Shown: piece after piece, positions 42,502 through 61,934 of the stretch
Position numbering within the stretch: position 1 is the stretch's first letter
Layout of the letters: every line of letters begins with the position of its first letter
Assembly: GCA_023135165.1 (NCBI GenBank)
Contig: JAGLTS010000028.1
Location: forward strand, 64,001-128,000
Origin: Phycisphaerales bacterium
GTDB lineage: Bacteria; Planctomycetota; Phycisphaerae; Phycisphaerales; JAGLTS01
DNA length: 64,000 nucleotides
Reading direction: 5' to 3'
Position numbers and translations under genes: made by a program
Notes under the pieces: model-generated
Told to the model about the DNA's origin: nothing
What the model saw: the letters and a program-made list of their open reading frames with translations, nothing else
Databases searched by the model: none

Positions 42502-44076
42502 TCACATCTTCTGCACATGCTCCTCGTCGAGAATCTCCTGAACCGTCAGGAGTTTGATGATTCTACCTGTTCTCTTGTGGAAGGCGGCGCATTCCTGCTC
42601 GGCGTTCTTTGTGTAACTGAACGCCACAAAGAAGCCCCGCTGCCGGCCCCCGGAGCCCTCTCGCTCCATCACCGCCTCGAACTTGTCGATCTCGGGGCGG
42701 CCGACCTTCTCTGACTGCTTCACCTGTACGGGGAACCAGTCTTCGGCGAACATGCTGTCGGTGTCGGCGGGCTTCGAGCCGACGGGGAAGATCCGGCCGT
42801 CGATGCCCATGTCGCCGACCTGCACCTTGTTGGGAATGCCACCGAGCGCAATGACCGCCCAGTTCTCGAACTCGAAGTGTGGGATGGCCTTGAGCTTCTC
42901 GATTGTCCATGGCAGTCCACGGACAATGAACCCGCGCCCGACTTGCCACAGCATGTCATCCTCGCGCATCTTGCACACATCACGGAGGCGCTTGGCCATG
43001 ACGCGGCACGCCGTGGGCGAAACATCTACGCCGATCCATTGACGACCAAGGTTCTGCGCGGCGACCAGCGCCGTTCCACAGCCGCAAAAGGCATCGAGAA
43101 CGATGTCGTTGGGGTTTGAGGAAGCTTTGATGATGCGGTCCAGAAGGGCGAGAGGCTTCTGCGTAGGGTAACCGAGGCGCTCGGACGCTTGCGCCTGAAC
43201 AGGCAGGATGTCTTCCCATACTGTGTCAACCGGCATGCCCTTCATCTCATCGAGATACCGCTTCTGGGAGGCGAGGCCGGTAGATGAGTAGTATATGATG
43301 CCTTTGTCGTGTGCTTCTTGCATCCGATCCTTCGTCCACCGCCACACACGCTTGTGACCGTTCCATTCGTAGGTGAGGTTCGGGCGGTTTGGGTTAGGGT
43401 TCGTGAGATCGCTAAGCCGGTACCGACGCCCTGTTTCATCCTCAATGTAGCGATAGAACTGCTTGATGTAGTCAGGATCGTATTCCTTGAACGGTCGGTT
43501 CCATGTGAAAGTATCAGGCCCTGTGTAGTAGAAGATATTGTCGTGGTTGTTCGGAAAACCCTTGAATGCGAGACCCTTCGCATTTGTGCGGCGCCAAACG
43601 ATATCACTGCGAAAGTTATTCTCTCCGAGAATCTGATCGAGCATCACCTTGACGTAGTGGCTGGCGTGCCAGTCGCAGTGGTAGTAGAAGCTGCCGGTCC
43701 TCTTGAGCACGCGGGCCAGTTCCACGCAGCGCGGGCGCATGTAGTCGATGTACGCCGCCGTGCTGGCGTGGCGATCGTCGAAGGCGCGTTTCTCCTTGGT
43801 CTCGCCCCAGAAGACTTCGTAGTTGCGGTTGCTGTTGAAAGGCGGGTCGATGTAGATCAGATCAACGCAGCCATCCGGGAGCGTACGCAACTGCTCCAGA
43901 CAATCGCCGCAGTGGACGATGCGCGTGTCAATCAGGGCCGAGGGCTTGCCCTTGGCAACTGCCGGGGCGTGTTCTTCGGTCTTCTTGCTCCCCCGCTTGG
44001 CAGGTGCTCGCTTCTTGGTCGGAGTCTTGGCGCTCCGTTTCACCGTTTTCTTCGCGGTAGTCCGCTTCTTGGCCAT
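42502..44076 (-). CDS. Adenine-type DNA methyltransferase fused to an Mrr-like nuclease domain
   Basis: This 524-residue protein has three regions. Residues 1-50 are Lys/Ala/Thr/Pro-rich (AKKRTTAKKTVKRSAKTPTK), resembling a histone H1-like DNA-binding tail. Residues about 55-360 are a beta-class methyltransferase: motif IV DLIYIDPPFNSN precedes motif I VLDAFCGCGTALVAAQNLG, with a target-recognition stretch between. Residues about 400-524 look like a PD-(D/E)xK restriction domain: GDMGIDGRIF gives the acidic residue, PVQVKQSEKVGRPEIDKF the QxK, and RQRGFFVAFSYT a core strand. Together they imply a single-chain restriction-modification enzyme. The ATG at 44076 is chosen; upstream residues are not family-like. 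Confidence 0.87.
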   Translation of the reverse strand: MAKKRTTAKKTVKRSAKTPTKKRAPAKRGSKKTEEHAPAVAKGKPSALIDTRIVHCGDCLEQLRTLPDGCVDLIYIDPPFNSNRNYEVFWGETKEKRAFDDRHASTAAYIDYMRPRCVELARVLKRTGSFYYHCDWHASHYVKVMLDQILGENNFRSDIVWRRTNAKGLAFKGFPNNHDNIFYYTGPDTFTWNRPFKEYDPDYIKQFYRYIEDETGRRYRLSDLTNPNPNRPNLTYEWNGHKRVWRWTKDRMQEAHDKGIIYYSSTGLASQKRYLDEMKGMPVDTVWEDILPVQAQASERLGYPTQKPLALLDRIIKASSNPNDIVLDAFCGCGTALVAAQNLGRQWIGVDVSPTACRVMAKRLRDVCKMREDDMLWQVGRGFIVRGLPWTIEKLKAIPHFEFENWAVIALGGIPNKVQVGDMGIDGRIFPVGSKPADTDSMFAEDWFPVQVKQSEKVGRPEIDKFEAVMEREGSGGRQRGFFVAFSYTKNAEQECAAFHKRTGRIIKLLTVQEILDEEHVQKM

Positions 44077-48904: not shown

Positions 48905-49602
48905 CTGCGGGGCGATTGATCAAGAGCGTGTTGTGCGCAGCGGCGTTTTTCACAGCGGGCGAAGCCGCTGGGCAGAGCGTGTACCTGCGCACACCCGATG
49001 CGGAGGCTGCGGCGGAGGAGGCTGAGCATCCCGGCGAGGCGCGTGCCGAGGCGAGTACGATCGCGACGCCGCCGCCTGAGCCGAGGGTCTTTGGCAAACA
49101 CGACATCGTGCACATCGTCGTTTCCGAAGCGACGAAGGTGAAGAGCGAGCACGATCTGAGCACTGAGAAGGACGGTGAGATGGGGGCCGAAGTCACTGCC
49201 TTTCCCGAGCTTCTTGAGTTCCTCGAACTGCGATTCAAAGCAGGTGATGAAACCGCGGGCGAACTGCCGAAGCTCGGCGTCAAGGCGGACCGCGCGTACG
49301 ACGCGGCGGGCGAGTACGAGCGGAAGGACACCTTCACCGCACGGATTGCGGCGACCATCCTTGAAGTCAAGCCGAACGGCACGCTGGTTCTGGAGGCGAG
49401 GCAGCGCATTGAGACAGATGGCGAGGTGCAGTTGATGGTGTTGTCGGGTTCGTGCCGTGAGGAGGATGTCACGGCTGCGAGCACGGTGTTCAGCTACCAG
49501 CTCGCTGACTTGCGCATCGTGCGTGAGACGGAGGGTGAATTGAAGCAGAACGCGCAGAAGGGGTTCTTCACGAAGGTTCTGGAAACGATCTTCTCGTTCT
49601 AG
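48901..49602 (+). CDS. flgH: Flagellar L-ring protein FlgH
   Basis: This 233-residue outer-membrane ring protein contains KHDIVHIVVSEATKVKSEHD, FTARIAATILEVKPNGTLVLEARQRI, LMVLSGSCREEDVTA and LADLRIVRETEGEL, all in FlgH order. FlgH is normally a lipoprotein. Here the N-terminal segment (LIKSVLCAAAFFTAGEAAGQ) has no LxGC-type lipobox, so anchoring may differ. It starts with GTG at 48901. Confidence 0.9.
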   Translation: MTAGRLIKSVLCAAAFFTAGEAAGQSVYLRTPDAEAAAEEAEHPGEARAEASTIATPPPEPRVFGKHDIVHIVVSEATKVKSEHDLSTEKDGEMGAEVTAFPELLEFLELRFKAGDETAGELPKLGVKADRAYDAAGEYERKDTFTARIAATILEVKPNGTLVLEARQRIETDGEVQLMVLSGSCREEDVTAASTVFSYQLADLRIVRETEGELKQNAQKGFFTKVLETIFSF

Positions 49603-53514: not shown

Positions 53515-55545
53515 ATGAGTACGATTCCATCCAATCTCGCTCGAGTTCCGAACCTGCTCGTCTCGTCCATGCAGCTTCGTAATCTGACCAGGACGAACGT
53601 GCAGTTCGTGAACGTGCAGTCGCAGTTGGCGACCGGTAGGCGCGTGAATCGGCCGAGCGATGACGCTTCGGCTGCGGCGCAGATCGGCGTGCTCGACAGC
53701 GACCTGGAGCGGTCCGAGCAGCGTGTGCGCAACCTGCAGCACGCAGGCTCGGTGCTCGACGTGACCGACAGCGCGCTGAGTGAGATCAGCAGGATCCTCC
53801 TTGAAGCGCAGGGGATCGCGAGCAGCCAGATCCAGTCGGATGCCGAGACGCGCGACGCCCAGGCGGTCGTCATCGAATCGCTGCTCACCGAGCTGCAAGC
53901 TCAGGCCAACCGCGAGTTCCTCGGGCTGCACGTCTTCGGCGGGAACCGCACCGCGGAGCCGCCCATCGTCGAGCAGCTCGGCGGGCTTCGCTACGGCGGG
54001 CAAGGTGAAGGGTTGCTCACCGACTTGGGCGGTGGGTTGCACATCCCCGTCACGACCAATGCGGAGGAAGCGCTGGGCAGCCTCTCCGCTCGTGTGCGAG
54101 GACAGCGAGACCTGACGCCTGAGCTGACTGAGGCGACGCGCATCAGTGACCTCAACGGCGCGCGGGGCGTCGGCGCAACGCTCGGCGTCATCCAGTTCAG
54201 CTATGACGGCTCCTCCTTCGTATCCGTCGACCTCGCCCGCGCGGATACGGTCGGTGATGTCATGGACATGATCGGCGCCGCGATTGCAGAGTACGAAGAT
54301 GACTCCGGCGAGACCGTGCTCGAAGGATCACGCATCTCGCTCAGCGGCGAGCAGATCGTCTTCGACATGGCCAGCGGCGGCGGGGCGCTCGTGTTCCAGG
54401 ATGTCGCGGCGAGCATGACCGCTGCTGACCTCGGCCTGACGCAGACGGACTTCCAGGACGGCGTCAACGAGAATGGGGCGGAGCTAAACCCCCGCGTCAC
54501 CTCGCTCACCGCCATCTCGGCAATCCCGGGACTCACAGCACTCGGCTCAATCCGCATCACCAACGGCGGGCAGACACGTATCGTCGATTTCAGCGCTGCG
54601 GAAACGCTCGAAGATGTAAAGAACGCGATCGAAGCGGAGCAACTCGGCGTGCGCGTCGAGATCAGCGAAGGCGGGACCGGTATCGACCTGCTCAACGAGT
54701 GGTCCGGCGCACATCTCTCGGTTGCGGAGGTGGATGACGGGTTCGGCCAGACCGCTGAGACGCTCGGCATCCGTACGCTTATCGGCGCGACGCCGCTCAC
54801 CGACTACAACTTCGGCCGCGGCGTCGATGTCGTCTCGGGCAACGTCGATCCGATGACCGGCCTGCCCGATCCGACGCGGGATGTGGACTTCACCATCACG
54901 CTTGCGGACGGCAGCAGTTTCGATGTGAATCTCCACCCGGAGGACACCACGACACAGGCGGTGATCGACCGGATCAACAGCGAAGCGGCTGCTGCGGAGG
55001 CTGCGGGCGACATCGCGGCTGGGTCGTTCACCGCGTCGCTTGGGATCGAGGTGAACGCCATCGTCTTCAACGACGCCACGGGAGGCGCCGGCCAGCTCGA
55101 CGTTGCAGCGCAGAACGGTTCGTTCGCTGCTGAGAATCTTGGCTTCATGGATGGCACGTGGGATGCCGGAAGCGCAACTTTCACCGGTGAGGACCGCACA
55201 ACCGTGCGCGTTGACAGCGCGTTCAGCACGCTGATGGCCCTGCGCGACGCATTGAGGCGCAACGATGTGCGTGGCATCACATTTGCGGGGGAACGACTGG
55301 TTGAAGATGTAGATCGTGCTGCCAAGGCCAGAGCATTGGTCGGCGGGCGCGCCAATCGCGTGCAGATCGCCACGGAGCGCGAAGAGGACAGACAGGTGCA
55401 GACGATTTCAGTACGAAGCCAACTGCGTGACTTGGATTACACCGAGGCTTCGATTCGTTTCAACCTGCTTCAGACACAGTTGCAGGCAGGCTTGATGAGC
55501 GTGGCGCAAAGCACGCAACTCAGCTTGCTGAACTTCCTTGGGTAG
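53515..55545 (+). CDS. flgL: Flagellar hook-associated protein FlgL, enlarged
   Basis: This 676-residue FlgL is about twice the usual length. The N-terminus (QLATGRRVNRPSDDASAAAQIGVLDSDLER) and the C-terminus (RDLDYTEASIRFNLLQTQLQAGLMSVAQ then LSLLNFLG) are flagellin-like. The extra length is in the middle: flagellin_IN-type repeats such as GSIRITNGGQTRIVDFSAAETLEDVKNAI and a second set around DVDFTITLADGSSFDVNLHP. The gene is eight bases after flgK. The extended domain may decorate the junction surface. Confidence 0.93.
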   Translation: MSTIPSNLARVPNLLVSSMQLRNLTRTNVQFVNVQSQLATGRRVNRPSDDASAAAQIGVLDSDLERSEQRVRNLQHAGSVLDVTDSALSEISRILLEAQGIASSQIQSDAETRDAQAVVIESLLTELQAQANREFLGLHVFGGNRTAEPPIVEQLGGLRYGGQGEGLLTDLGGGLHIPVTTNAEEALGSLSARVRGQRDLTPELTEATRISDLNGARGVGATLGVIQFSYDGSSFVSVDLARADTVGDVMDMIGAAIAEYEDDSGETVLEGSRISLSGEQIVFDMASGGGALVFQDVAASMTAADLGLTQTDFQDGVNENGAELNPRVTSLTAISAIPGLTALGSIRITNGGQTRIVDFSAAETLEDVKNAIEAEQLGVRVEISEGGTGIDLLNEWSGAHLSVAEVDDGFGQTAETLGIRTLIGATPLTDYNFGRGVDVVSGNVDPMTGLPDPTRDVDFTITLADGSSFDVNLHPEDTTTQAVIDRINSEAAAAEAAGDIAAGSFTASLGIEVNAIVFNDATGGAGQLDVAAQNGSFAAENLGFMDGTWDAGSATFTGEDRTTVRVDSAFSTLMALRDALRRNDVRGITFAGERLVEDVDRAAKARALVGGRANRVQIATEREEDRQVQTISVRSQLRDLDYTEASIRFNLLQTQLQAGLMSVAQSTQLSLLNFLG

Positions 55546-55675
55546 TGGGGATCGGTAGGACTCACCGGGGGAACCGAGCGGTGCATCGGCCGCACCGACG
55601 GTGAACGAGACAGGATGTCGTCCGGCCACGGAGGTCGGAGCCAGGATTGGCGGGCCGATAGATTGGAGCGTTCGG

Positions 55676-56122
55676 ATGAACGTTGAAACCACACGGTTTG
55701 GAACCGTGGAGATCGAGGACGATCGTGTGATCACGTTCCCCAATGGGCTGCTCGGGTTTGCCGCCTACAGGCGGTTTTGCCTCCTGAGACCCAACGACGA
55801 CGGCGTGTTCTTCTGGCTTCAGTCGCTGGAGGAGCCGTCGCTCGCGTTTGTGGTGACGGACCCGAGTGTGTTCGTGCCCGACTACGTCGTCCCAATCAGG
55901 CCTGAGCAGATGCAGTCCCTTGGACTGAGGAGCATCGACGACGCTCAGGTCCTGGTGATCGTGAACAAGCAAGACGACCACCTGACGGGCAACCTTCAGG
56001 GGCCGGTCATCGTGAGCACGATCAGCAGGCTCGGTGAGCAACTCGTGCTTGCGGAGAAGCGGTGGACGACACGGCACACGCTTGTGGAGCTGTCACAGGT
56101 TCCGCAGGCAGCGTCGGCGTAG
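55676..56122 (+). CDS. fliW: Flagellar assembly factor FliW
   Basis: FliW binds flagellin and CsrA and relieves CsrA repression of flagellin translation. The 148-residue protein has TTRFGTVEIEDDRVITFPNGLLGF, LLRPNDDGVFFWLQSLEEPSLAFVV and VPIRPEQMQSLGLRSIDDA, all in family order. The ATG at 55676 fits the FliW N-terminus. It lies directly upstream of csrA and the flagellins, the arrangement described in Bacillus. Confidence 0.94.
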   Translation: MNVETTRFGTVEIEDDRVITFPNGLLGFAAYRRFCLLRPNDDGVFFWLQSLEEPSLAFVVTDPSVFVPDYVVPIRPEQMQSLGLRSIDDAQVLVIVNKQDDHLTGNLQGPVIVSTISRLGEQLVLAEKRWTTRHTLVELSQVPQAASA

Positions 56123-56303
56123 CGGGACGCGACGAGCCGTCTTTCGATTCGACCTGGTCCGTAGGACCGGTCGGATGCGGCGCGATCGGCGCGCGATCAC
56201 GGAGACGGCATGGCTGACGCCTCGACGTACGGATGCGTCGAGTGGCACGAGCGTGGCTGCGGATCAGTACCGGCTGCAGCCTCGACGAGGAAGGAGCCAA
56301 CCG

Positions 56304-56603
56304 ATGTTGGTGCTCTCACGTCAGCGTGATGAAACGATCATGATCGGCGACGAAATCGAAGTGACCGTCGTCGACATCAGAGGTGACAAGGTCAGGCTGG
56401 GCATCAATGCGCCGACGCGCATCGCCGTACATCGCAAAGAGATCTACGAGGCGATCAAGCGCGAGAACGAACAGGCGGCGCACCTGCTCGACCCGGAGGA
56501 CATTGATGTGCTCAGCCGGGCCATCGCACCGGGGCCTCATCGCAACCGCGTCGGGCCCAAGCTCAAAGCGACCAAGCCCGCCAAGGGCAGCAAGTCGGCA
56601 TGA
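56304..56603 (+). CDS. csrA: Carbon storage regulator CsrA
   Basis: This RNA-binding translational regulator recognises GGA motifs in hairpin loops. The 99-residue protein has MLVLSRQRDETIMIGDEIEV, TVVDIRGDKVRLGINAPTR and IAVHRKEIYEAIKREN, the complete CsrA fold, with the RNA-contacting Arg residues of strands beta-1 and beta-5. About 30 extra residues at the C-terminus form a basic tail (VGPKLKATKPAKGSKSA) not found in the 61-75-residue model proteins. AAGGAG lies seven bases before the ATG. Confidence 0.96.
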   Translation: MLVLSRQRDETIMIGDEIEVTVVDIRGDKVRLGINAPTRIAVHRKEIYEAIKRENEQAAHLLDPEDIDVLSRAIAPGPHRNRVGPKLKATKPAKGSKSA

Positions 56604-56694
56604 AGTTCCACACCCACGTGCGCGCCGTGCGCCGCACGCAGTTCAAGACGCACCGCCAAGGTGCGATGAGAGATAGACACCCACGGCTGCATCG

Positions 56695-56710
56695 GAACGA
56701 CGGATCGTTC
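56695..56710 (+). promoter_or_regulatory. Candidate CsrA-binding hairpin in flagellin 1 leader
   Basis: GAACGA-CGGA-TCGTTC forms a perfect 6-bp stem with GGA exposed in a tetraloop, 43 bases before the start codon. A second GGA site overlaps the ribosome-binding site (AGGGAGGATTG). Two GGA sites, one in an upstream hairpin and one over the ribosome-binding site, is how CsrA represses flagellin translation in Bacillus. Confidence 0.55.
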
Positions 56711-56753
56711 AGCAGCCGGCCCACCGGGCGGTTAGCAATCAGGGAGGATTGAC

Positions 56754-58271
56754 ATGGCTCGGATCAATACAAACGTCCCGTCGCTCGTTGCTCAGCAGCA
56801 TCTGAGTCGCGCCAACTCCGATCTCATGGTTCGGCTCGAACGGCTCAGTACCGGGCTGCGGATCAACCGAGGTTCGGATGATCCAGCGGGCTTGATTACG
56901 TCGGAACGCCTCCGAAGCGATCTGCGCGGCATCGACCAAGCCATCGCCAACTCCGAGCGGGCCTCGTCCGTCATCGCGGTCGCCGAGGGCGCGCTCATCG
57001 AGGTGTCCGACCTTCTCAACTCGATCAAGGCGATGGTCGTTGAAGCGGCGAACACGGGCGGTGTCTCCGAAGACGAGATCGCCGCCAACCAGCTTCAGGT
57101 CGATTCCGCCATCGAGTCGATCACGCGCATCGCCAACTCGACCAACTTCGCCGGCCTGAAGCTCCTCAACGGAGAGCTTGACTACATCCTCAGTGGTGTT
57201 GACAGCAGCGACATCTCCAAGGCGCAGATCTTCTCCGCCAACTTCGGCGATAACGACACGCTGCCTGTCAGCGTCGAGGTGCTCGGCTCCGCGCAAGTCG
57301 CGCAGCTCTTCCTCACGGGTAACGCTGGCGCCACAGCCGGCACGATCCCCAGCGGCTTCACGATCGAGATCGCAGGCAACGAAGGCGTGGCGACGCTCAC
57401 CGTCACGTCCGGTCAGTCGATGAGTCAACTCGTCACGGCCGTCAACAACCTCAAGGGCGTCACCGGCGTCTCCGCTTCGCTTGTCAGCGCGACCAACGAC
57501 AGTTCGGGCGTGATCTTCTCGAGCACCGAATATGGATCGGATGCCTTCGTGTCGGTCGAGCGGATGGGCGACCTCGGCTCGACTTGGTTCAACATGTATG
57601 CTGCGGATGACTCGTCCGAGCTCCTCAACTCCGGCAACATCGATCTCTCCGAGCCGGTGAATCGCGACATCGGGCAGGACGTCACCGCACTGGTTAACGG
57701 CTTGCTCGCCGCGGGTGACGGCCTGCGGGTCTCGACCAACGCGCCGACGCTCTCTCTGTCACTGCTGCTGGAAGCCACTCTCGCGCAGGATGTCGGCGAG
57801 TCATCGACGTTCACGATCACGGGGGGCGGGTCGGTCTTCCAACTCGGCCCACAGGTCAGCAACAGCCAGCAGGTGTCGCTCGGACTGCAATCGGTGTCGG
57901 CATCGCGGGTCGGTGGCACGCTCGTCGAGGGCGAGCTGATGTTCCTCAACTCGCTGGTTTCGGGCGGCAGCTACGATCTGGACGGCGGCAACCTCCAGTC
58001 TGCGAGCAAGATCCTCGAAACCGCGATTGCTGAGGTCGCCATCATGCGAGGCAGGCTTGGGGCGTTTGAGCGCAATACACTCGAAACCAACATCCGCTCC
58101 ATGCAGGCGGCCTTCGAGAACATCACCGCCAGCGAGTCCGCCATCCGGGATGCCGATTTCGCAGCCGAGACAAGCGCCCTGACCCGCGCGCAAATCCTCA
58201 CACAGGCGGGAACTTCAGTCCTGGTGATGGCGAACACGACGGCGCAGAACGTGCTGCAGCTTCTCGGCTAA
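56754..58271 (+). CDS. fliC: Flagellin 1
   Basis: This 505-residue filament subunit opens with the typical RINTNVPSLVAQQHLSRAN and ERLSTGLRINRGSDDPAGLI and closes with IRDADFAAETSALTRAQILTQAGTSVL and a terminal LQLLG. The central variable region (about 180-400) includes FTIEIAGNEGVATLTVTSGQ, related to the centre of flagellins 2 and 3. It is the most divergent of the three copies. A clear GGGAGG precedes the ATG, and a terminator follows at 58314. Confidence 0.95.
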   Translation: MARINTNVPSLVAQQHLSRANSDLMVRLERLSTGLRINRGSDDPAGLITSERLRSDLRGIDQAIANSERASSVIAVAEGALIEVSDLLNSIKAMVVEAANTGGVSEDEIAANQLQVDSAIESITRIANSTNFAGLKLLNGELDYILSGVDSSDISKAQIFSANFGDNDTLPVSVEVLGSAQVAQLFLTGNAGATAGTIPSGFTIEIAGNEGVATLTVTSGQSMSQLVTAVNNLKGVTGVSASLVSATNDSSGVIFSSTEYGSDAFVSVERMGDLGSTWFNMYAADDSSELLNSGNIDLSEPVNRDIGQDVTALVNGLLAAGDGLRVSTNAPTLSLSLLLEATLAQDVGESSTFTITGGGSVFQLGPQVSNSQQVSLGLQSVSASRVGGTLVEGELMFLNSLVSGGSYDLDGGNLQSASKILETAIAEVAIMRGRLGAFERNTLETNIRSMQAAFENITASESAIRDADFAAETSALTRAQILTQAGTSVLVMANTTAQNVLQLLG

Positions 58272-58313
58272 ACGTAACGGTCACAATGGTTTGAACGATT
58301 CCACCACCTCCAG

Positions 58314-58347
58314 CACCCCGGCGATGACCTCGCCGGGGTGTTTTTAT
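58314..58347 (+). terminator. Terminator after flagellin 1
   Basis: CACCCCGGCGA (58314-58324) pairs with TCGCCGGGGTG (58330-58340) around a five-base loop and is followed by TTTTTAT. Confidence 0.9.
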
Positions 58348-58393
58348 CTGGACCGTCCCGAAAGAAAAAAGCACCGCTCTTGTTCTGGGGCCT

Positions 58394-58420
58394 TAATCCT
58401 CTCATCTCCGCGACCGATAG
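58394..58420 (+). promoter_or_regulatory. Possible sigma-28 promoter for flagellin 2
   Basis: TAAT (58394-58397), a 15-base spacer and ACCGATAG (58413-58420) match the sigma-28 pattern TAAA-N15-GCCGATAA in three of four and six of eight positions. It lies 112 bases before the start codon and after the flagellin 1 terminator, so flagellin 2 probably has its own transcript. Confidence 0.45.
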
Positions 58421-58531
58421 CTTTTCCCGGCCCGAGAATCCACGGTTGGACCTTGGGCCGAGTGCACGTTTCGTTCATGCCAGCCTGTCCATGATGGACG
58501 CACAGGCCGGGCTCGGTTCACGGAGGACACC

Positions 58532-60043
58532 ATGAGTCGCATCAACACCAACGTGAGTTCCCTCATCGCTCAGCGCGTGTTGGGCCAACAGAATCTCGCC
58601 TTGACCACCTCGCTGGAACGGCTCTCGACCGGTCTGCGAATCAATCGAGGCAAGGATGACCCCGCCGGCCTCATCGCCAGCGAGAACCTGCGCTCGGAGA
58701 AGGCAGCCATCTCCGCTGCCCTCACCAACGCAAGTCGGGCCGAGCAGGTCGTCAACGTCGCTGAGGGCGGACTGCAGGAGGTCAGTATCCTCCTCACTGA
58801 GATGCAGGGATTGGTGACGACCGCCGCCAACACCGCGGGCCTTTCCGATGAAGAGAAAGATGCCGCCCAACTCCAACTCGACTCGATCTTGCAGACGATC
58901 GACCGGATCGCCGGCTCGACGAGCTTTGAGGGTATGAAGCTGCTCAACGGCAACCTCGACTACACGGTGTCGAGCCTCGCCACGACCGTCTCCGACTACG
59001 AGGTCCGCGGCGCGAAGCTCTCGACAGGCGGGACGCTTGCCGTCGAGGTGATCGTGACGACCTCGGCTCAGACGGCCGGGATGATCATGTCCACGAACGG
59101 CGCGCTGGATCTCGGTACCGGCTCGACGTTCACGATCGAGATCGCTGGTGAGGAGGGGACGCGCGAACTGAGCTTCGCGTCAGGCACCACCGTCGCTCAG
59201 ATGGTGACCGCCATCAACACCTACAAGGATGTGACCGGCGTCTCCGCTGCGGCGCTCAGTTCCGGCACGACCGACGGCGTCGAGCTTCGTTCGACCGAAT
59301 ACGGCAGTGACGCCTACGTCTCCGTCAAAGTCATCGACGACGGCGGGATTGGTGCAGGGCTCGGCCTGTACGGCTTCCAGTCCGACAATGCGGAAGCCGC
59401 GAACACGACGATCCTGTCCACCTTCGCCCTCGCTACGAACGCAGTCAAGGACGACGGCCAGGATGTCGGCGCGAGCATCAACGGCATCACAGCCACGACC
59501 GATGGCAAGACCGCTCGGATCAACAGCGACTTCCTCGACGTGGAGATCACACTGACCAACGCCGGTGCGGGGGCTGTCGGTTCGATCAGCGCCTTCACGA
59601 TCACGGGCGGCGGGGCGGACTTCCAGCTCTCGCCGAGCGTTGATATCGCCGGGAAAGTGAGCATCGGGATGTCCAATGTCGCCGCGCGGACGCTCGGATC
59701 GGCGGCGCACGGCTACATTGACGACCTCGGCTCAGGTCAGAGCTACAACTTGTCAAGCGGCGACCTCACACTGGCGCAAAAGGTCGTCAGTGAGGCGATC
59801 AAGCAGGTCAGTTCGATGCGAGGCAGGCTCGGCGCGTTCCAAAAGAACGTCGTCGGCGCGACCAACCGCTCGCTCGCCGTTGCCCTTGAGAACACGACAT
59901 CCGCTGAGTCGGTCATCCGTGACACGGACTTCGCGAGTGAGACCGCGAACCTGACGCGAGCACAGATCCTCGTCAACGCAGCGACGAACGTCCTGAGCAT
60001 CGCAAACAGCCAGCCGCAGAACGTCCTGACATTGCTCGGATAA
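58532..60043 (+). CDS. fliC: Flagellin 2
   Basis: This 503-residue filament protein begins MSRINTNVSSLIAQRVLGQQ and continues with ERLSTGLRINRGKDDPAGLI. The C-terminal D0/D1 block reads RGRLGAFQKNVVGATNRSLA, then FASETANLTRAQILVNAATNVL and a terminal LTLLG. Its central domain shares long identical DNA with flagellin 3 (77 bases at 59117-59193), stronger identity than in the conserved ends. CACGGAGGACACC lies directly before the ATG. Confidence 0.96.
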   Translation: MSRINTNVSSLIAQRVLGQQNLALTTSLERLSTGLRINRGKDDPAGLIASENLRSEKAAISAALTNASRAEQVVNVAEGGLQEVSILLTEMQGLVTTAANTAGLSDEEKDAAQLQLDSILQTIDRIAGSTSFEGMKLLNGNLDYTVSSLATTVSDYEVRGAKLSTGGTLAVEVIVTTSAQTAGMIMSTNGALDLGTGSTFTIEIAGEEGTRELSFASGTTVAQMVTAINTYKDVTGVSAAALSSGTTDGVELRSTEYGSDAYVSVKVIDDGGIGAGLGLYGFQSDNAEAANTTILSTFALATNAVKDDGQDVGASINGITATTDGKTARINSDFLDVEITLTNAGAGAVGSISAFTITGGGADFQLSPSVDIAGKVSIGMSNVAARTLGSAAHGYIDDLGSGQSYNLSSGDLTLAQKVVSEAIKQVSSMRGRLGAFQKNVVGATNRSLAVALENTTSAESVIRDTDFASETANLTRAQILVNAATNVLSIANSQPQNVLTLLG

Positions 60044-60070
60044 CACAGATACACGGACGAATACGAATCC

Positions 60071-60101
60071 AAAGCCCAGGGAAAGCCTTCCCTGGGCTTT
60101 C
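60071..60101 (+). terminator. Probable terminator after flagellin 2
   Basis: AAAGCCCAGGGAA (60071-60083) pairs perfectly with TTCCCTGGGCTTT (60088-60100) around AGCC. The stem is strong but the T-run is short. Confidence 0.75.
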
Positions 60102-60404
60102 TACGTGGGATGCGCGAGCCAGCCTCCTACCTCTGAGGTCCATATACAGCTCAGCACGTCGCCGGATCGCCCGTCGCGCTGCGGTTTCGTTGCAGGTTAA
60201 CGGGCCATCTCCGCAGCGGGTGGGTCGTGCTGTGCGATCTGTGCAGGCGGGCGAATGGCGATAACACGTGATGCTCGGCGATTGGCTTGACAGGCGTGAT
60301 ACCAGCCTTGCGGGCACCCGATCCACCATATGAAAGCGGCGCCGTGTAGGCGTCGGCTCTACGTACAACAGAGAAAGTTGATCGCCCGCGTTGGGCCGTC
60401 GCAA
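60102..60404. other. Upstream region of flagellin 3
   Basis: No gene is visible in this 300-base stretch. GGCGATAA at 60257-60264 resembles a sigma-28 -10 element in seven of eight positions, but no matching -35 was found at 15 bases. Confidence 0.5.
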
Positions 60405-60421
60405 GTGTTCACGGAGGACAC
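60405..60421 (+). promoter_or_regulatory. Hairpin with GGA loop masking the flagellin 3 ribosome-binding site
   Basis: GTGTTC (60405-60410) pairs with GGACAC (60416-60421) around ACGGA, ending one base before the ATG. The loop exposes GGA and the stem contains the ribosome-binding site, so it is a possible CsrA site. The flagellin 2 leader has the same bases except GG for GT at the stem base, giving a weaker four-pair stem. Confidence 0.5.
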
Positions 60422-60422
60422 C

Positions 60423-61934
60423 ATGAGTCGCATCAATACAAATGTTAGCTCGCTGATCGCCCAACGCGTGCTGGGCCAGCAGAATCTCTCGCTGAGCAAG
60501 TCGCTCGAAAGGCTCTCAACCGGTCTGCGGATCAACCGCGGCAAGGATGACCCGGCAGGGCTGATCGCCAGTGAGAACCTTCGGGCCGACATGTCCGCAC
60601 TCGGGTCGGCGATCGGCAATGCCGAGCGGGCGGAGCAGATGGTCAACGTCGCGGAAGGCGGCTTGCAGGAGGTGAGCACACTGCTGACCGAACTGCAGGG
60701 ACTGACCACCACCGTCGCCAACACAGCCGGCCTGTCCACTGAGGAGAAGGAGGCTGTCCAGCTTCAGGTCGATTCGATTCTCCAGACGATCGACCGCATC
60801 GCGGATTCCACGACGTTCCAGGGCATCAAGTTGCTCAACGGCAACTTTGACTACAGCGTCTCGAACGTCGCCACGACCGTTTCCGACTACAAGATCAACG
60901 GGGCCAAGCTCGAAAGCGGCGGAACCCGTGACGTGCAGGTGCTTGTCACAACCTCGGCACAGCTGGCTGGCATGATCATGTCCACGAACGGTGCGCTGGA
61001 CCTCGGCACCGGCTCGACGTTCACGATCGAGATCGCTGGTGAGGAGGGGACGCGCGAACTGAGCTTCGCGTCAGGCACCACCGTTGCCCAGATGGTGACC
61101 GCTATCAACACCTACAAGGATGTGACCGGCGTCTCCGCTGCGGCGCTCGCCTCCGGCTCGATCGATGGCGTCGAACTCCGCTCGACCGAGTTCGGCAGTG
61201 ACCCCTACGTCTCCGTCAAGGTCATTGACGACGGCGGGATCGGTGCGGGGCTCGGCCTGTACGGCTTCGAGTCCGCCAATGCGGAAGCTGCGAACACGAC
61301 GATCCTGTCCACGTTCGCCAACGCCACGAACGCGGTCAAGGACAGCGGCCAGGATATTGGCGCGAGCATCAACGGCGTCACGGCCACGACCGATGGCAAG
61401 ACGGCGCAGATCAACACGGACTTCCTTGATGTGGAAGTCACGTTGACCGACACCGGGGCCGGCAATGTCGGCTCGATCAGCGCCTTCACCATCACCGGCG
61501 GCGGAGCGGACTTCCAGCTCGGCGGAACGGTGAATATCGCTGGAAAGGTGAGCTTGGGCGTCCAGAACCTCGCTTCACGCAAGCTGGGCAACTCGGCACT
61601 GGGGTATCTGAACTCGCTCACATCAGGCGATGCCAACAACATGGTGGATGGCGATCTGACATCCGCCCAGAAGATCCTGGCTCAGGCCATCAAGGATGTC
61701 AGCGCGACGCGAGGCCGACTCGGCGCGTTCCAGAAGAACACAGTCGGTGCGACCGTCCGGTCGCTCGGCGTGGCGCTGGAGAACACGACCGCAGCCGAGT
61801 CGACGATCCGTGACACGGACTTCGCCAGTGAGACGGCGAATCTGACTCGTTCGCAGATCCTCGTCAACGCGTCGATGAACGTGCTGAGCATCGCGAACGC
61901 GCAGCCTCAGAACGTCCTGTCCCTTCTGGGATGA
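60423..61934 (+). CDS. fliC: Flagellin 3
   Basis: This 503-residue flagellin closely resembles flagellin 2 along its whole length. It starts MSRINTNVSSLIAQRVLGQQ and ends with ANLTRSQILVNASMNVLSIA and LSLLG. Its central region includes EIAGEEGTRELSFASGTTVA, identical to flagellin 2. An in-frame extension to 60330 exists but ignores the perfect upstream GGAGG and the family N-terminus. It is followed by a strong terminator. Confidence 0.96.
   Translation: MSRINTNVSSLIAQRVLGQQNLSLSKSLERLSTGLRINRGKDDPAGLIASENLRADMSALGSAIGNAERAEQMVNVAEGGLQEVSTLLTELQGLTTTVANTAGLSTEEKEAVQLQVDSILQTIDRIADSTTFQGIKLLNGNFDYSVSNVATTVSDYKINGAKLESGGTRDVQVLVTTSAQLAGMIMSTNGALDLGTGSTFTIEIAGEEGTRELSFASGTTVAQMVTAINTYKDVTGVSAAALASGSIDGVELRSTEFGSDPYVSVKVIDDGGIGAGLGLYGFESANAEAANTTILSTFANATNAVKDSGQDIGASINGVTATTDGKTAQINTDFLDVEVTLTDTGAGNVGSISAFTITGGGADFQLGGTVNIAGKVSLGVQNLASRKLGNSALGYLNSLTSGDANNMVDGDLTSAQKILAQAIKDVSATRGRLGAFQKNTVGATVRSLGVALENTTAAESTIRDTDFASETANLTRSQILVNASMNVLSIANAQPQNVLSLLG

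Follow-up and report, generated by a model that had tools for sequence, protein, structure and literature searches.

The control of flagellin synthesis by CsrA and its antagonist FliW has been established in Bacillus subtilis (PMC6529632) and in Campylobacter jejuni (PMC4894983), and the circuit is regarded as a balance that depends on the tight coupling of two genes (here and below, the cited papers are drawn upon in part). The B. subtilis authors predicted that other systems must limit the abundance of FliW and CsrA, and no action of CsrA on fliW is described in the portion of their paper used here; a full-text search of the open-licence literature yielded no account of fliW mRNA as a target of CsrA. 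At the RNA itself, two GGA sites separated by 10 to 63 bases can be bridged by a single CsrA dimer, a dimer anchored at a hairpin can go on to contact the ribosome-binding site (RBS), and RsmA can stabilise a hairpin over an RBS (PMC7652899). The subject of this report is a 64,000-nucleotide window (the whole stretch of DNA analysed) from a Phycisphaerales bacterium with a genome of 3.9 Mb in 119 contigs, and in particular the RNA leader of its fliW gene, which stands with csrA and three flagellins in one flagellar run. It is proposed that in the class Phycisphaerae CsrA probably represses flagellin, its antagonist FliW and itself; among the targets predicted from sequence, fliW is the strongest, followed by csrA.

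Six consecutive hairpins with GGA in their loops occupy positions 55609-55724, across the leader and start of fliW (55676..56122) and upstream of the flagellins; these coordinates, like all that follow, refer to the + strand of the window. Hairpins were called by a self-devised rule (a stem score of at least 4, or 5 where stated, with G-U pairs counted as 0.4, and with at most three loop bases before the GGA and at most two after it), which was fixed on the window after a looser scan and before relatives were examined. When the stretch was subjected to 5000 dinucleotide shuffles, the mean number of hairpins was 0.45 and the maximum 3, and no other trinucleotide among the 64 attained three hairpins in the native sequence. 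In 653,362 bases of the genome, scanned on both strands with the window included, this array was the sole place with at least four GGA hairpins in 131 bases. Its loop GGAs lie at 55613, 55630, 55644, 55674, 55700 and 55717, and the GGA of the fliW RBS (UUGGAGC) at 55665..55667, with a spacing of 9-26 bases.

The first three hairpins, termed A, B and C, are enclosed by a closing stem, P1, which in the leader alignment ends just 5' of the RBS. Its 5' arm (ATCGGCC, 55585..55591; inner-pair probability about 0.97) belongs to helix 1, which covaries, and its 3' arm (GGCCGAU, 55653..55659) comes from the folding prediction. Hairpin A (GACA-GGA-UGUC, 55609..55619) contains the CsrB repeat CAGGAUG and is predicted with a pair probability of 0.5-0.76, falling to 0.16-0.25 without the P1 arm; for hairpin B (UCCGGCC-ACGGA-GGUCGGA, 55621..55639) the corresponding values are 0.75-0.99 and 0.48-0.64, and hairpin C (GCCA-GGAU-UGGC, 55640..55651; 0.64-0.99) is of the CCAGGAUGG type in many relatives. 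The fourth hairpin lies over the fliW start codon (AGCGUUC-GGAU-GAACGUU, 55667..55684), with a pair probability of about 0.83-0.94 in two folding contexts and 0.09 in a third. The last two fall within the reading frame, one in the first codons (CACGGU-UUGGA-ACCGUG, 55692..55708; 0.82-0.94) and one shortly after (GAUCG-AGGA-CGAUC, 55711..55724), the latter weak when taken alone (0.14-0.31).

The same feature recurs in relatives, all of them genome assemblies. FliW was present in 58 of the 61 genomes searched (the organism's own included), and the main set accordingly comprised 58 fliW loci, with the three genomes that lack FliW left out and downstream flagellins found in 52 of the 58. As controls, 38 open frames of at least 200 codons, beginning with ATG and carrying GGAG at -16 to -4, were taken by rule from the same loci, their status as genes being presumed. 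Between -100 and +10, 53 of the 58 fliW leaders carry a GGA hairpin and 43 carry two or more, for a total of 112, against 53 for the next trinucleotide, AGG. Counted in 20-base bins, the hairpins number 30, 36 and 27 between -80 and -21, and the remaining bins from -400 to +300 hold at most 10 each, mostly 1-6. A hairpin of score at least 5 in the upstream region (-110 to -24) is found in 45 of the 58 fliW leaders and in only one of the 38 control frames.

Leaders that had played no part in the discovery behave similarly. A further 80 named loci, mostly from metagenomes, were reduced to 71 leaders by removing eight repeats and one leader that was too short (L177); 67 of these contain GGA hairpins, with 43 having more than one, and shuffles give 0.34 per leader. 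Hairpins were also found in seven of seven further genomes of the order outside the discovery set. In 14 of the 71 new leaders (for example L170, L176, L187, L190 and L234), a short hairpin of the form GCAC-(C/A)ATGGA(N)-GTGC places the fliW start codon and a GGA together in one loop; the fliW start in the window lies within a GGA hairpin as in these relatives, by a different sequence.

Between -110 and +10 of the 58 leaders, 116 hairpins carry GGA in the loop and only three its complement TCC (AGG reaches 54, of which only four are without GGA in the loop); because of this disparity the signal belongs to the RNA strand and not to a DNA palindrome, and palindromic DNA operators were rejected on the same count of coding-strand loop words. 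(For the named leaders, the strand-bias comparison used 74, only repeats of the 58 having been removed.) The CsrB repeat CAGGA(U/A/C)G is present in 39 of the 58 fliW leaders, 20 of which have two, where 3.1 would be expected; for the 71 new leaders the count is 44 and the expectation 3.6.

A covariance model (R1), built from 30 leaders with the window among them, returned only fliW leaders at E <=0.002 in 701,611 bases, 43 in number and 13 of them outside the training set; at E <=1 there were 51 matches, four of them away from fliW. In the organism's own genome R1 gave one strong match, at the fliW leader, and one other at E 0.69. The full element in the window (55566..55678) ends at the fliW start codon and scored 58.6 bits, E 6.3e-10, in the search of the 701,611 bases, the window being itself a training row. 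Among the 43 leaders, both sides had changed in 20 of 22 pairs, with a covariation score of 0.269 against 0.133 for shuffled alignments (a level that none of 500 reached) and no more than 0.101 for slid ones, and in 52 named leaders that partly overlap the 43 the figures were 19 of 22 pairs and 0.229 against 0.102 shuffled and at most 0.058 slid; both alignments were fitted to the model's own structure, which flatters the score, and the slid controls offset this only in part. The 52 rows are the model matches among the 80 named loci, a few of them repeating leaders already used. A second model (R2) was built on the 43 R1 matches. In helix A of the 43, one G-C pair is retained in all 40 rows that have letters, and of the 38 rows with letters at the second pair, 25 have A-U and 13 G-C, with no mismatches and gaps in five.

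When R2 was applied to 298 whole genomes of the class, 34 were matched, all of the same order or the organism's own, and all 34 matches end at the start of fliW by their coordinates, seven of them in genomes previously unseen. That search used stricter filters, under which 27 of the 61 FliW-bearing order genomes that it covered went unmatched, and the figure of 34 is a lower bound. On the 80 named loci, the 52 matches at E <=0.01 all stop 15 bases or less from the fliW start codon. An Rfam search over 55300-60600 returned two weak matches, of 21.6 bits (gathering score 60) and 16.6 bits (gathering score 40), neither on the fliW or the csrA leader; with no family reaching its gathering score over that interval, a known Rfam element was rejected, and the fliW leader element is a structured RNA without an Rfam match.

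The leader of csrA carries a single long hairpin, CUCGACGUA-CGGA-UGCGUCGAG (56221..56242), with nine pairs, six of them at a probability of 0.98-1.0; its score was matched in 0.15% of shuffles. By the same upstream criterion that was used for fliW, 32 of the 58 csrA leaders have a GGA hairpin, as opposed to one of the 38 control frames, and by eye hairpins of score at least 5 were found in the csrA leaders of 10 of 21 genomes from other orders of the class.

An earlier reading of this DNA (the 'original prediction') had been concerned with the flagellin leaders, proposing that hairpins with GGA loops in those of flagellins 1 and 3, together with GGA in their ribosome-binding sites, place them under the FliW-CsrA switch described in Bacillus. 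Both hairpins are present: that of flagellin 1 (GAACGA-CGGA-TCGTTC, 56695..56710; pair probability 0.78-1.0) ends 43 bases before the ATG at 56754, and that of flagellin 3 (GTGTTC-ACGGA-GGACAC, 60405..60421; 0.35 or 0.96-0.99 by context) ends one base before the ATG at 60423. Because equally good GGA hairpins occur in 1.5% of shuffled flagellin-1 leaders and 2.3% of shuffled flagellin-3 leaders, each is only mildly unusual on its own. The GGAs of the two ribosome-binding sites are likewise there, except that in flagellin 3 the GGA of the loop is itself part of the RBS, which leaves no second site.

The expectation that loop GGAs would be conserved holds for a different hairpin from the one that had been named upstream of flagellin 1, which was seen, in that exact form and by eye among the leaders of the order, in the window alone. 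The upstream criterion picks out 8 of 52 first flagellins and 13 of 46 later ones in the order, against the single control frame. It is the RBS of flagellin 1 that lies in a conserved hairpin (CAAUC-AGGGAG-GAUUG, 56736..56751; pair probability 0.32 or 0.99 by context), a candidate CsrA site at the level of sequence: at a score of at least 5, such a hairpin holds the RBS of the first flagellin in 39 of 52 order genomes and of none of the 38 control frames with GGAG (44 of 52 and 3 of 38 at a score of at least 4), and in some relatives its stem varies on both sides, as in GACAAAC/GTTTGTC. By eye, it also appears at 12 of 21 first flagellins from the other orders of the class and at 2 of 15 beyond the class. 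Of the later flagellins, 10 of 46 carry it; in flagellin 2 the corresponding stretch (58515..58531) contains a bulge and no intact hairpin. The further suggestion that the three flagellins are repressed to different degrees according to the strength of their stems is therefore unsupported, since the features concerned are individually near chance and the RBS hairpin is infrequent in later flagellins. The assignment of the locus to the FliW-CsrA switch fares better, in that the first-flagellin RBS hairpin and the matches of FliW and CsrA to the structural entry 5dmb agree with it; it was incomplete, having missed the leaders of fliW and csrA. An unlinked flagellin-like gene (L282, from about 2007 onward, contig 37), with an uncertain start codon, has one weak GGA hairpin upstream.

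Within the flagellar run, then, CsrA would bind the GGA hairpins of the fliW, csrA and flagellin leaders, with the first flagellin ranking above the others. On fliW, dimers seated on hairpins A-C, gathered together by P1, would bridge to the GGA of the RBS and to the start codon, leaving fliW untranslated; on flagellin 1, CsrA would bind and stabilise the hairpin that holds the RBS; and on csrA, the single hairpin would give a weaker self-repression. Export of flagellin would then free FliW to bind CsrA, releasing flagellin, csrA and fliW itself. Successive loop GGAs lie 10-63 bases apart in 113 of 115 steps, and the distance from the last upstream hairpin to the GGA of the RBS has a median of 37.5 bases (measurable in 108 of 129 leaders); because this spacing fits the range over which a dimer can bridge, repression by CsrA is to be expected for fliW, for flagellin 1 and, more weakly, for csrA. 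The parts of this scheme differ in strength: CsrA is likely to be the ligand of the hairpins, its effect is fairly likely to be repression, and the logic of the circuit is a guess.

Apart from the flattering of the covariation scores mentioned above, several observations weigh against the proposed repression. CsrA can also activate, as on ymdA and moaA (PMC7652899), and might act on fliW in that direction instead. Four of the 58 fliW leaders (L050, L063, L088 and L089) have no GGA hairpin between -160 and +60, the hairpin of score 5 is missing from 26 of the 58 csrA leaders, and a csrA hairpin of score at least 5 was also found, by eye, at 6 of 31 loci outside the class. In the window, the predictions for the start-codon hairpin and for hairpin A vary with the stretch that is folded, the R of the SELEX consensus RUACARGGAUGU is absent from hairpin A, and several stems exceed the four pairs or fewer that are typical of SELEX winners (PMC7652899). 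Finally, the CsrB repeat shows no enrichment in the leaders of csrA (3 of 58, against 2.6 expected) or of the first flagellin (1 of 52, against 2.2 expected), and only 3 of 21 fliW leaders from other orders of the class contain it (0.8 expected); because of this distribution, the fliW element of this order is of its own type.

A more ambitious form of the scheme, which is possible but must be regarded as tentative and on the doubtful side, is a two-way lock, in which FliW would disable the CsrA protein while CsrA silences the RNA of fliW more than that of csrA, so that filament production would become all-or-none, with memory. In a toy simulation with chosen parameters, two stable states arose with stronger repression of fliW than of csrA in the absence of cytoplasmic flagellin; with cytoplasmic flagellin there was one state, and one state was obtained in all three other settings. 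The simulation shows only that such logic could exist. If the lock were real, a cis-acting RNA element outside Rfam would have replaced translational coupling, and the output would be switch-like rather than finely balanced as in the coupled Bacillus form.

The main rival to cis repression, with which it can coexist, is that the fliW leader acts as a 'sponge', its hairpins trapping CsrA so that transcription of fliW inactivates CsrA before any FliW protein has appeared. Six sites in 116 bases do resemble a small CsrB or RsmZ, the enrichment of the CsrB repeat in fliW leaders points the same way, and the leader of the C. jejuni flagellin gene flaA has been described as such a trap (PMC4894983); moreover, in the 653 kb scanned of the 3.9 Mb genome, no further array of this kind and no second CsrB-like RNA was found. 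Against these stand the facts that most relatives carry only one to three sites and that the sites extend to the RBS and start codon, which a sponge would not need; in addition, fliW mRNA would hardly be as abundant as that of flagellin. Titration as the function of the leader is, on this evidence, unlikely.

Less likely still is a leader structured for some other purpose, such as processing by an RNase in the flgL-fliW interval, action as a thermometer, or recognition by another RNA-binding protein, for example a divergent CsrA. The closing stem and the hairpins are predicted to fold without a ligand, and a second CsrA is indeed encoded 14.7 kb upstream of the start of the window, with at least two CsrA matches in 50 of 61 genomes; such purposes would not account for GGA being the most enriched loop word, on the RNA strand only, or for the recurrence of the feature ahead of fliW, csrA and the first flagellin but in few control frames. 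It is scarcely credible that the hairpins simply reflect a GC-rich sequence together with the GGA requirement of ribosome-binding sites: single hairpins of this size do arise in 1.5-2.3% of shuffled flagellin leaders, but for fliW the idea is contradicted by the shuffles, the control trinucleotides, the strand bias, the control frames, the covariation and the out-of-sample model matches, the first three of which led to the rejection of chance GC-rich structure there (a rejection that does not cover flagellins 2 and 3).

The hairpin signal also has a taxonomic boundary. GGA hairpins occur in 16 of the fliW leaders of 21 genomes from the class's other orders (an average of 1.33 per leader, shuffled sequences giving about 0.28), and R2 found no element of the order's type in these 21. 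Among planctomycetes outside the class, only 5 of 35 fliW loci (two of them from one genome) have hairpins, at 0.17 per leader against about 0.16 shuffled, which is chance. The class and the new order genomes together (23 of 28) differ from those outside (5 of 35) with a Fisher P of 1e-7, uncorrected for phylogeny. The spacing of fliW and csrA follows the same division. The two genes do not overlap in the window, where the gap is 181 bases, and the median gap is 125.5 bases in the 58 loci (range 12-498), 84 in the seven further order genomes and 210 in the 21 from other orders, as compared with 16 outside the class, where it was counted in 31 loci and where the genes overlap or lie at most 32 bases apart in 25 of these (among L095-L140). 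Such short or overlapping junctions would permit coupled translation of the kind known from Bacillus. At the level of the class, separation of the two genes thus goes hand in hand with a CsrA-type fliW leader. Within the order, the gap showed no relation to the number of fliW hairpins (Spearman 0.17, P 0.21). An apparent link between the gap and the csrA hairpin (0 of 10 at gaps below 90 bases, 32 of 48 above) was set aside as confounded, the scan at short gaps falling inside fliW.

The flagellar run itself comprises flgI, flgN, flgK, flgL, fliW, csrA and the three flagellins, all on the + strand. The gene preceding fliW is flgL (53515..55545), which has Flagellin_N/C Pfam matches and is placed after flgK; the flagellins lie at 56754..58271 (PF00669, 3.6e-31), 58532..60043 (6.2e-31) and 60423..61934 (5.6e-31). 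The identities of FliW (PF02623, 1.6e-34) and of the CsrA that adjoins it (56304..56603; PF02599, 3.4e-24) are secure by Pfam, and their best matches in the Protein Data Bank (PDB) are two chains of the single entry 5dmb, 5dmb_A (FliW, 3.6e-19) and 5dmb_D (CsrA, 4.7e-18). This CsrA has 99 amino acids, of which residues 2-61 are covered by the alignment to 5dmb_D, and by its sequence it is of the FliW-binding type with an extended C-terminus, the part that FliW contacts (PMC7652899). By FliW, most of the nearest named records bear the label Phycisphaerales or Phycisphaeraceae, Planctomycetota; two others, titled Leptolyngbya sp. PLA1 (L197) and Isosphaera sp. WM.009 (L235), have FliW proteins 66% and 67% identical to that of the window, and because of this their organism labels may be wrong. 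Elsewhere in the window, at about 43100-43220, three GGA hairpins lie within 131 bases on the + strand, one of them AGGCA-GGA-TGTCT.

The second, divergent CsrA lies at about position 49295 of the same contig (L002 1465-1734). Where genomes have at least two CsrA matches, one adjoins fliW and there is usually a divergent one elsewhere. Four genomes of the same order without FliW (G036, G044, G050 and G280) have no flagellin either, and the first three (G280 being outside the CsrA search) have a single CsrA match, of the divergent kind. These three genomes suggest that the CsrA linked to fliW serves the flagellum and disappears with it; the divergent CsrA, because it alone remains in the searched relatives that lack FliW and flagellin, may have a non-flagellar role.

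The closest described relative of this locus is the Hag-FliW-CsrA switch of B. subtilis (Oshiro 2019, PMC6529632, citing Mukherjee 2011), with which it shares FliW, CsrA, flagellin and the extended C-terminus of CsrA; there CsrA acts at the flagellin RBS, where a candidate site is predicted here. The two differ in that fliW overlaps csrA and is translationally coupled to it in B. subtilis, whereas here a gap of 181 bases separates the genes and each has its own leader with GGA hairpins. In C. jejuni (Dugar 2016, PMC4894983), the flagellin leader has two GGA stem-loops bound by CsrA, to which the hairpins predicted here are comparable; the antagonism of FliW towards CsrA, and the ability of the flagellin leader to titrate CsrA, are counted as further likenesses. 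Table 1 of that paper has no row for fliW or csrA, and no fliW leader array appears in the part of it used here. Autoregulation of csrA in Escherichia coli (Yakhnin 2011, via PMC7652899) likewise relies on CsrA sites in the csrA leader, as predicted here; E. coli has four, one of them over the RBS, in contrast to the one long hairpin about 60-80 bases upstream in the window. With the sponge RNAs CsrB, CsrC and RsmZ, the fliW leader shares a row of GGA hairpins and the CAGGA(U/A/C)G repeat (PMC7652899); here, however, the row forms the leader and start of a coding gene for the antagonist of CsrA, and runs into the fliW frame.

A hint that CsrA may affect fliW outside the planctomycetes as well, at the level of transcription, comes from Clostridioides difficile, in which fliW transcription is lower in a fliC mutant and does not fall in a fliC csrA double mutant (PMC11898703). 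Compared with the coupled arrangement, the class Phycisphaerae appears to have separated fliW from csrA and to have added CsrA-type RNA leaders, the gene for the antagonist being the most heavily marked. Control through the fliW leader, if true, would be one answer to the limitation of FliW and CsrA levels that the Bacillus authors predicted. It would give planctomycete flagella a post-transcriptional circuit and offer a natural comparison between the coupled and uncoupled forms of one module, in which control by CsrA of its own inhibitor could turn a circuit known for balance into an on/off switch.

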